Shown: one piece after another, positions 33,506 to 36,243 of the stretch
Position numbering within the stretch: position 1 is the stretch's first letter
How the letters are laid out: each line of letters begins with the position of its first letter
Notes under the pieces: generated by a model
The model's input: only the letters and a program-made list of their open reading frames with translations
The model's database searches: none
Told to the model about the DNA's origin: nothing
Program-made: the position numbers and the translations under genes
Assembly (NCBI RefSeq): GCF_013343215.1
Contig: NZ_CP039143.1
Location: 868,001-932,000 of the forward strand
Length of the DNA: 64,000 bases
Direction of reading: 5' to 3'
Source: Acinetobacter sp. 10FS3-1
GTDB taxonomy: Bacteria; Pseudomonadota; Gammaproteobacteria; Pseudomonadales; Moraxellaceae

Positions 33506-34159
33506 ATGTCAAATATAAATTATGATGAACTCATGAAGCCCGTGATTGGCTTCCTGGGTTGTGAAACGCCCCAAGCCTGGCTCAATGAAGCACTGAATAA
33601 TCTGGATATTCTGATGCAGGATCATGCTAACTGCGAGAAAAAAGCCGCCAGTACGGCGATGAATCTGATGTTTCGCTACAGTTTCTTTGTAGATTTGCAG
33701 GTGAAACTGGCACAGCTGGTCCGTGAAGAGATGCTGCACTATGAGCAAGTGCTGGAATTTATGAGTAAACGTGGTCAGCAATGGATTGGTCTTAGTGCGG
33801 GGCGTTATGCAGGTGGCCTACGTAAAGAAATTCGGACCTATGAGCCAGAAGCCCTGATTGATGTGTTGATCATTGGTGCCTTTGTGGAGGCTCGTTCTTG
33901 TGAGCGTTTCTATGCACTTGCACCTTTGGTCGATGAAGAGCTGGGCCGTTATTATCGTTATCTGCTGAAATCCGAATCTCGCCATTATGAGGATTATCTG
34001 GCACTGGCGATGGATGTGGCAAAAACCGCAAAATGGAAAAATCCAGAAGAGAATATCCAGAGCCGTATTGAGCATATCCGGGAAGTAGAAAAGAATCTGA
34101 TTTTAAGTCCAGATGAGCTTTTTCGTTTTCATAGTGGTGTGCCCGTACAGGCAGCATAA
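33506..34159 (+). CDS. miaE: tRNA-(ms2io6A)-hydroxylase MiaE
   Basis: 217 residues forming a helical diiron protein. Candidate ligands are in CEKKAASTAM, REEMLHYEQV, EARSCERF and ESRHYEDY, matching the ferritin-like E/H pattern of MiaE. It hydroxylates ms2i6A37 in tRNA. Last gene of the rightward series. A terminator and then the CRISPR leader follow. Confidence 0.92.
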   Translation: MSNINYDELMKPVIGFLGCETPQAWLNEALNNLDILMQDHANCEKKAASTAMNLMFRYSFFVDLQVKLAQLVREEMLHYEQVLEFMSKRGQQWIGLSAGRYAGGLRKEIRTYEPEALIDVLIIGAFVEARSCERFYALAPLVDEELGRYYRYLLKSESRHYEDYLALAMDVAKTAKWKNPEENIQSRIEHIREVEKNLILSPDELFRFHSGVPVQAA

Positions 34160-34171
34160 GTTTGACATGAT

Positions 34172-34200
34172 GCAAGCGGGACAAAGTTCCCGCTTTTTCT
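34172..34200 (+). terminator. Terminator after miaE
   Basis: The stem AAGCGGGA/TCCCGCTT with a 6-nt loop, then TTTCT. Confidence 0.8.
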
Positions 34201-34204
34201 TTGG

Positions 34205-34366
34205 GCTGAAGTTGATTAAATAGAGGCTTTATTTAACCCAAAATATTTTAATTTTCTAATTAAATATAAAAATTAGAAACTTATAGATAGATAGGAATAA
34301 GAGGGCTATTGGGGTGTATTTTAGATAATACTATGTTTTTTATCTGGTTTTAGGTATTTTGGTTGT
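34205..34366 (+). promoter_or_regulatory. CRISPR leader
   Basis: About 160 bp of strongly AT-rich DNA abutting the first intact repeat, while the opposite end of the array carries the degenerate repeat. This identifies the left side as the leader. It contains two inverted repeats: TTTCTAATT/AATTAGAAA (34253-34279) and TTAAATA/TATTTAA near 34216-34236. Leaders of this class carry a promoter and an IHF-type bend. No specific IHF site could be confirmed by eye. Confidence 0.7.
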
Positions 34367-36075
34367 GTGTACTGCCATATAGGCAGCTTAGAAAAACTCA
34401 ACAAGGATGGAAAGAAGTATTTGAAAGTGTACTGCCATATAGGCAGCTTAGAAATCAAACGTGGTGGCTTGGTGATCCTGATTCATGTGTACTGCCATAT
34501 AGGCAGCTTAGAAATTAAATCGGTTTTTAGCTCTTGGAGTTCAACAGTGTACTGCCATATAGGCAGCTTAGAAAAATTGCATCAGAAATGAATTCAGTCG
34601 GAACAAGTGTACTGCCATATAGGCAGCTTAGAAATACAACGAGCTTCTAGAAATGCAAAGCTTATCGTGTACTGCCATATAGGCAGCTTAGAAAGTGACA
34701 TTTTAAGAGCCATTAAAAAGCTAGATGTGTACTGCCATATAGGCAGCTTAGAAATAGAGATGGCTAAGCAAGGCATACCACTAAAAGTGTACTGCCATAT
34801 AGGCAGCTTAGAAATTCATGCTGCATTAAAAAGGTAATTGCGTCATGTGTACTGCCATATAGGCAGCTTAGAAATTATTGGTATCACGATCAATATGCTG
34901 TCCACAGTGTACTGCCATATAGGCAGCTTAGAAATAAAAGCATTTTTGCTTGCTTACGCACCGACTGTGTACTGCCATATAGGCAGCTTAGAAAACGTAT
35001 GCAAGAATGTAGGACAGTTTGATGATGTGTACTGCCATATAGGCAGCTTAGAAAAGCCATTATCACCCCGCAATCGACTACCTAAGGTGTACTGCCATAT
35101 AGGCAGCTTAGAAATTGCACACTGTAAAACAAATTAATTTTACCAAGTGTACTGCCATATAGGCAGCTTAGAAAGCGTGCAGATTTACTTTGATCAATCC
35201 AACCGTGTGTACTGCCATATAGGCAGCTTAGAAAACAAGCAGAAAAGCAGGGCGTGGAAGAAAAAGGTGTACTGCCATATAGGCAGCTTAGAAAGAAATG
35301 TCTAAGTATTCGCAAGGTACGGAAAGGTGTACTGCCATATAGGCAGCTTAGAAATTTGGGGTATGAATCGCCCATGTGTAGGCATGGTGTACTGCCATAT
35401 AGGCAGCTTAGAAACATTAATAAGTGCAAGTGATTAGGCTGATTAAGTGTACTGCCATATAGGCAGCTTAGAAATCAAGTAGTTTTAAATAATCGTTTCT
35501 CATAACGTGTACTGCCATATAGGCAGCTTAGAAAGTTCACTGAAGTCATAATTCTGGTATTAAAAAGTGTACTGCCATATAGGCAGCTTAGAAAATAGCC
35601 CCACATAAGAAGCGCAGGACCCGCTTGTGTACTGCCATATAGTCAGCTTAGAAAATAATCGCAGTACGAGTCTCGACTTTGGTAATGTGTACTGCCATAT
35701 AGGCAGCTTAGAAATAAATCAGATATCAGCCCGTTTAGCGATTTTTGTGTACTGCCATATAGGCAGCTTAGAAATGTCGTTATCAGAGTAGCCGTTCGGG
35801 TAGTCTGTGTACTGCCATATAGGCAGCTTAGAAATATACGCAATAGGTTTAGTTACAGAGCAGTATAAGTGTACTGCCATATAGGCAGCTTAGAAAGATG
35901 GAAATGGAATATGTTGGCCATCATGTGCGTGTACTGCCATATAGGCAGCTTAGAAATTGTCCAGATCTGCTGGAATTAAAATCAGGCCGTGTACTGCCAT
36001 ATAGGCAGCTTAGAAAATGCACCAAAGGCAACTGCCAGTGCAAGTAAGGTGTACTGATATAGGCAGCTTAGCAAA
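34367..36075 (+). CRISPR. CRISPR array with type I-F-like repeats, 29 repeats and 28 spacers
   Basis: 28-nt repeats begin GTGTACTGCC and end GGCAGCTTAGAAA, with a CTGCC/GGCAG stem around an ATATA loop. This is the hairpin cut by Cas6f (Csy4) in type I-F. Spacers are 32 nt except number 25 (35835-35868, 34 nt). Repeat 22 has G to T at 35643. The last repeat (36049-36075) lacks CC and has an extra C, a typical leader-distal decay. No two spacers look alike. No cas1, cas2-3, csy or other cas gene lies within the window on either side. Open frames running through the array are period artefacts, not genes. Confidence 0.98.
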
Positions 36076-36167: not shown

Positions 36168-36243
36168 TGGCTCTCCCACCTGGGCTCGAACCAGGGACCT
36201 GCGGATTAACAGTCCGTCGCTCTACCGACTGAGCTATGGGAGA
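36168..36243 (-). tRNA. tRNA-Asn (anticodon GTT)
   Basis: Reverse-strand cloverleaf: acceptor TCTCCCA/TGGGAGA, T-arm CCTGGTTCGAGCCCAGG, anticodon loop CTGTTAA with anticodon GTT, encoded CCA. It sits about 90 bp from the end of the CRISPR array. Confidence 0.95.

Follow-up and report, generated by a model that had tools for sequence, protein, structure and literature searches.

The locus studied here raises the question of which Cas proteins, if any, serve a CRISPR array that has no cas genes beside it. A first-pass annotation of the window (the whole 64-kb stretch of DNA that was analysed, C1:868001-932000 of a 3.65 Mb genome in 13 contigs) had described an array with type I-F-like repeats at 34367..36075, and had left two explanations side by side: service in trans by a type I-F system elsewhere, or survival after the loss of a local cas operon.

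The array itself was recovered with the same coordinates and the same count. There are 28 forward-strand repeats at 34367-36016, each with at most one mismatch, and one damaged distal repeat of 27 nt at 36049-36075 (+), making 29. All but one of the 28 are exact copies of the 28-nt sequence GTGTACTGCCATATAGGCAGCTTAGAAA, the sole substituted copy being repeat 22 (35627..35654, +), where a G has become T. The spacers are almost as regular: 27 of the 28 are 32 nt long and spacer 25 (35835..35868, +) is 34 nt, and comparison of the spacers with each other gave no matches at E 0.01, so that each is unique. The repeat has the features of type I-F (28 nt, a 5-bp hairpin and an 8-nt 3′ handle), and the Rfam family CRISPR-DR4 scored above its cut-off in 27 repeats. 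Across the whole genome, allowing up to three mismatches, the repeat gave 28 forward and 134 reverse matches where a backward-read control gave none, and is thus not a chance pattern. With its AT-rich, leader-like side at the left and the damaged repeat at the other end, the array is read rightward.

A tblastn search with the genome's own six Cas proteins found no I-F cas homologues in the 64-kb window, the best match (E 0.014 over 20 residues) being at the level of noise; the earlier description of a window without cas genes therefore holds for I-F cas. When ten window proteins were compared with Pfam, one had no domain and nine had ordinary ones (an Era-like GTPase, RecO, PdxJ, MiaE, a thioesterase, an HxlR regulator, an aminotransferase, an M24 peptidase and a succinate dehydrogenase subunit).

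A window without cas genes did not mean a genome without them. The genome-wide search for cas1, cas2-3 and csy1-4 that the first-pass annotation had proposed returned a complete type I-F1 operon (cas1, cas2-3, csy1, csy2, csy3 and csy4) at C1:1907236-1915402, on the same contig and 1.0 Mb from the window array. Cas1f, Cas2-3, Cas8f, Cas7f and Cas6f of this locus match PADLOC models and Csy2 matches a Pfam model; its cas1 is the only one that the I-F cas1 model found in the genome. Next to the operon and a leader lies an array of 135 repeats (C1:1899034-1907104), comprising 134 copies of GTTCACTGCCATATAGGCAGCTTAGAAA and one damaged copy, with spacers mostly of 32 nt. A second I-F set, cas3 plus csy1-4 without cas1, is present on the 395-kb, plasmid-like contig C2 (G000:C2:129000-148500). 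It encodes Cas3, Cas8f, Cas5f, Cas7f and Cas6f, and its Cas3 is without the N-terminal Cas2 part, the profile match starting at position 111 of 1110. This set has 14 repeats and a leader without an IHF consensus, and the surrounding 19.5 kb matches part of plasmid pB18-3 from Acinetobacter indicus B18 with 100% identity. The host is thus probably an Acinetobacter and perhaps A. indicus, although plasmids are mobile. With two I-F cas loci in the genome, the window array was rejected as a true orphan, that is, an array in a genome devoid of cas genes.

We compared the window repeat with those of the two cas-bearing loci. The repeats of the window and of the cas-linked array differ only at positions 3-4 (GT for TC); the hairpin CTGCC-ATATA-GGCAG and the 8-nt handle CTTAGAAA are identical in both, as are the predicted fold and its energy (−7.8 kcal/mol). 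Given this identity, the chromosomal Csy4 is thought able to process the window array. The search for other arrays with the same repeat, also proposed earlier, found I-F arrays on C1 and C2, neither with an identical repeat. Overall, the window array resembles the cas-linked one in its 28-nt repeat, hairpin, handle and mostly 32-nt spacers, and differs in that the cas-linked array has a GTTCA head, a leader with the full IHF consensus and 135 repeats, and adjoins cas genes. No spacers are common to the two arrays.

The plasmid-borne set could also be proposed as the main user of the window array, as it resides in the same genome and provides Cas3, Cas8f, Cas5f, Cas7f and Cas6f. However, the plasmid repeats differ from the window repeat in both loop and stem (GTATAGGTAG), whereas the window hairpin is the chromosomal one, and a set that has no cas1 would not be expected to add spacers. 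We consider this assignment very improbable.

The altered head of the window repeat, GTGTA instead of GTTCA, was seen in 1 of 175 genomes of the genus. A collection of species genomes yielded 14 stretches with the same head (GTGTACTGCC), in Photorhabdus, Providencia and Pseudoalteromonas. These arrays resemble the window array in this feature but belong to other genera and have other leaders, and some adjoin cas genes. GTGTA is therefore already known as a head variant, with a single occurrence in this sample of the genus. The exact window repeat gave no matches in a collection of genome contigs or in IMG/VR, sets in which the window genome itself is possibly not included. A cas cluster of Photorhabdus asymbiotica is flanked by two arrays, the one towards cas1 with GTGTA heads and the one towards csy4 with GTTCA heads. 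We did not accept this locus as one complete operon with two array types: cas1 and csy1-4 are present, but almost nothing of cas2-3 was matched (20 residues, E 0.57), and the locus is thus weak support for the use of both heads by a single working system. In the window, GTGTA heads every repeat, the damaged distal one as well as the other 28, so the head change predates the oldest remaining unit.

The sequence upstream of the first repeat (34227..34366, +; positions −140 to −1) was then compared with other Acinetobacter leaders. TAACCC begins at −133, and 11 of the 14 others have either this motif or TACCC in the range −132 to −135; GGGC stands at −64, where 13 of the 14 have GGGT at −64 or −65 (the window leader has a GGGT of its own at −55). 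Ungapped alignment to four leaders found beside miaE in other genomes was best at offset 0, where identity was 53-59%; none of 24 other offsets exceeded 46%. In global alignments with nine leaders, the score of the window leader was reached by none of 1000 shuffles against G063 and G092, and by only 1-2 of 1000 against G122, G047, G086 and the cas-linked leader; against the remaining three (G118, the plasmid leader and G083) it was not significant, with 153, 45 and 41 of 1000 shuffles, respectively. A profile of 13 leaders scored the window leader at 10.0 bits and the best of 1000 shuffles at 5.0. The first profile, whose 17 rows held two repeat-containing stretches and the plasmid leader, had given −2.1 bits, a score equalled or exceeded by 216 of 1000 shuffles. 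Of the window's 1186 AT-rich stretches, a single one attains the score of the leader, and that one overlaps it; the best of 69 miaE loci without an array scores 28 compared with 52 for the window leader. We therefore regard this sequence as a recognizable, in-register but strongly diverged type I-F leader.

Its divergence is marked. In gapped alignments the window leader is 56-65% identical to each of 12 others, whereas all other pairs from different genomes are 65-89% identical, making it the least conserved of the compared set. An IHF-like sequence, AATTAGAAACTTA, occupies the canonical place at −96 with two of six core positions changed, and no site within one mismatch of the consensus, which we take to be that of IHF, was found in the window leader. 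Predicted sites match this consensus in full in 12 of the 14 other Acinetobacter leaders, the exceptions being G020 (one mismatch) and the plasmid leader. A promoter scan likewise found no promoter-like pair in the window leader: its best candidate matches at 7 of 12 positions, compared with 8 to 10 in nine other leaders scanned, a comparison that has no chance control, and four miaE-side leaders keep TTGACA-18-AATATT (10/12). Lacking both the IHF consensus and a promoter-like pair, the array may be silent. In published work, IHF and inverted-repeat motifs are reported for I-F leaders (PMC12259127), and adaptation in A. baumannii is described as requiring one A-rich leader region, a proposed IHF binder, other leader regions not being essential (PMC9602844).

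These leader features are what would be expected of a retired array of the same system, one that grew in the past and whose leader then decayed, so that today it would gain no spacers, be poorly transcribed and persist as a fossil. Against this, 27 of the 28 repeats are identical, including at the head positions that lie outside the hairpin, and a long silence should have scattered changes among them unless selection had prevented it. Retirement is a serious rival, though less likely than not. The earlier description of the array as actively maintained is plausible from the uniformity of the repeats, but the leader is diverged, which could not be seen at first pass.

The identity of hairpin and handle, the in-register leader and the presence of one intact cas set with the sole cas1 found together point to a different reading, in which the window array belongs to the chromosomal type I-F1 system of this genome, although it lies far from the cas genes; we think that it is probably this system that serves it in trans. 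Of the two explanations offered at first pass, service in trans thus gains a complete I-F1 set to provide it and a hairpin and handle common to both arrays, from which we infer the service itself. The array would be transcribed rightward from its leader, the chromosomal Csy4 (Cas6f) would cut each repeat 3′ of the hairpin, and the resulting crRNAs would load into the chromosomal Cascade. The window spacers would have been added by Cas1 and Cas2/3 of the chromosomal locus, or by a forerunner of it. Uniform repeats behind the most diverged of the compared leaders suggest that the array gained its present units when the leader had already done most of its drifting, in which case this leader and the GTGTA head might still function, perhaps weakly. 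Selection on the repeats, or a recent exchange of the leader, would produce the same pattern. Carried further, cas-distant service would make the locus a still functional, naturally evolved I-F integration site with an altered head and a leader without a consensus IHF site or the usual promoter, such that, within a single cell, Cas1-Cas2/3 of the cas-linked locus would extend two arrays that differ in their site rules. We regard this stronger form as rather unlikely.

The array is ordinary in kind, and the drifted leader and head are its unusual parts. Orphan arrays are reported from the A. baumannii complex (PMC11035748). In the account given in PMC12814883, distance from the cas genes makes little difference to the growth rate of arrays whose repeats are identical, and distant arrays with outlying repeats are possibly inactive. 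Since leader and head have drifted but the hairpin has not, the window locus separates the needs of crRNA processing from those of spacer integration, a question that leader mutants of A. baumannii have begun to answer (PMC9602844). It thus offers a natural test of what such a distant site needs to keep working.

The position of the array is also not peculiar to this genome. It lies downstream of miaE, a tRNA hydroxylase gene (33506..34159, +; Pfam PF06175, E 1.1e-68) that was matched in 148 of 149 genomes of the genus and serves as the anchor of the site. A candidate terminator-like hairpin from a consensus scan (34174..34195, +) separates miaE from the leader, and a tRNA-Asn(GTT) gene (36168..36243, −) forms the downstream border. 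We examined this site in 76 of the 149 genomes, which include all 50 with an exact match to an I-F repeat pattern (a pattern that misses some repeat variants); 30 of the 77 miaE loci covered extend less than 1.6 kb downstream. An I-F array was present downstream of miaE in seven: the window genome, G122, G063, G092, G047, G118 and G086, the last on a contig that ends inside the first repeat. The other six arrays share with the window array their place and an in-register leader, and the five that are not cut off are likewise followed by tRNA-Asn, but the six have GTTCA heads and leaders with the full IHF consensus. On a single-gene miaE tree without support values the genomes with such an array occupy three separate positions; G134, G060 and G114, the three closest to the window genome, have no array within the stretch examined. 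An I-F array site beside miaE therefore recurs in Acinetobacter.

The survival of the array after deletion of a former cas operon at this site was weighed against the same loci. The relative G118 offers a precedent, as it keeps a miaE-side array in a genome where cas1 is matched over just 41 residues and csy2 not at all. In G047, another bearer of such an array, the cas1 match is in two pieces and no csy2 match was found, and in both genomes the arrays appear to have outlived their cas genes. A stretch before the G047 leader that resembled the tail of csy4 by eye was unsupported by tblastn. For the window genome, cas loss finds no such support, because a complete cas set is kept elsewhere. Furthermore, no cas remnant was detected in 77 miaE loci (best E 0.10; 30 of the 77 cover less than 1.6 kb downstream), and the first repeat begins 209-233 nt after miaE in five of the six array loci with whole repeats (409 nt in G047), leaving no fit for an upstream cas operon. 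Cas loss at the miaE site is thus highly unlikely. An assembly artefact, for which no evidence was found, is scarcely credible, since the flanks are normal neighbours (36 of 69 array-less genomes have the tRNA-Asn gene no more than 400 nt from miaE) and an I-F array starts beside miaE in six other species. In G063, a further I-F array (G063:C9:1195000-1207000) lies approximately 300 kb from csy2, in addition to the one beside miaE.

The window array could also be imagined as an anti-cas array, with spacers directed against I-F cas genes. The orphan CRISPR4 of E. coli, as cited in PMC12814883, is a type I-F array with anti-cas spacers, and on that description it resembles the window array in lying away from cas genes. 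The window array differs from it in that no anti-cas spacers were found and the genome has I-F cas genes, in two sets: with hits up to 75 nt from repeats dropped, no window spacer had a match of at least 16 nt (E up to 0.1) to the genome's own two cas loci or the fetched cas loci. We give this explanation almost no weight. Self-targeting was likewise discarded, all 14 own-genome matches at E 0.05 falling within the three arrays.

To look for other targets, we searched phages, plasmids and IMG/VR. The contiguous window array gave no match in 50,697 phage records, and seven of the 28 spacers, used as patterns that miss mismatched targets, gave none in IMG/VR. Two plasmid records were returned in near mode; they proved to be I-F arrays of the GTTCA type, with 29 and 17 repeats in the stretches, and we rejected them as targets because the matching 30- and 28-nt words consist of the repeat and a few bases, with no window spacer whole. 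No protospacer, and hence no CC PAM, was seen for the window array in these searches of phages, plasmids and, for seven spacers, IMG/VR. The 135-repeat array provides a yardstick: its 7996 bases gave three phage records with one full-length exact match, a yield so low that a blank for 28 spacers says little. That match is of cas-linked spacer C43 to the Acinetobacter phage vB_AbaS_qsb1 (32/32 bases) with CC on the PAM side, and CC has been reported as the PAM for I-F interference in A. baumannii (PMC9602844). Within the cas-linked array, spacers 31 and 35 have 31/31 bases in common, and spacers 39 and 129 have 18 nt in common in opposite orientation.
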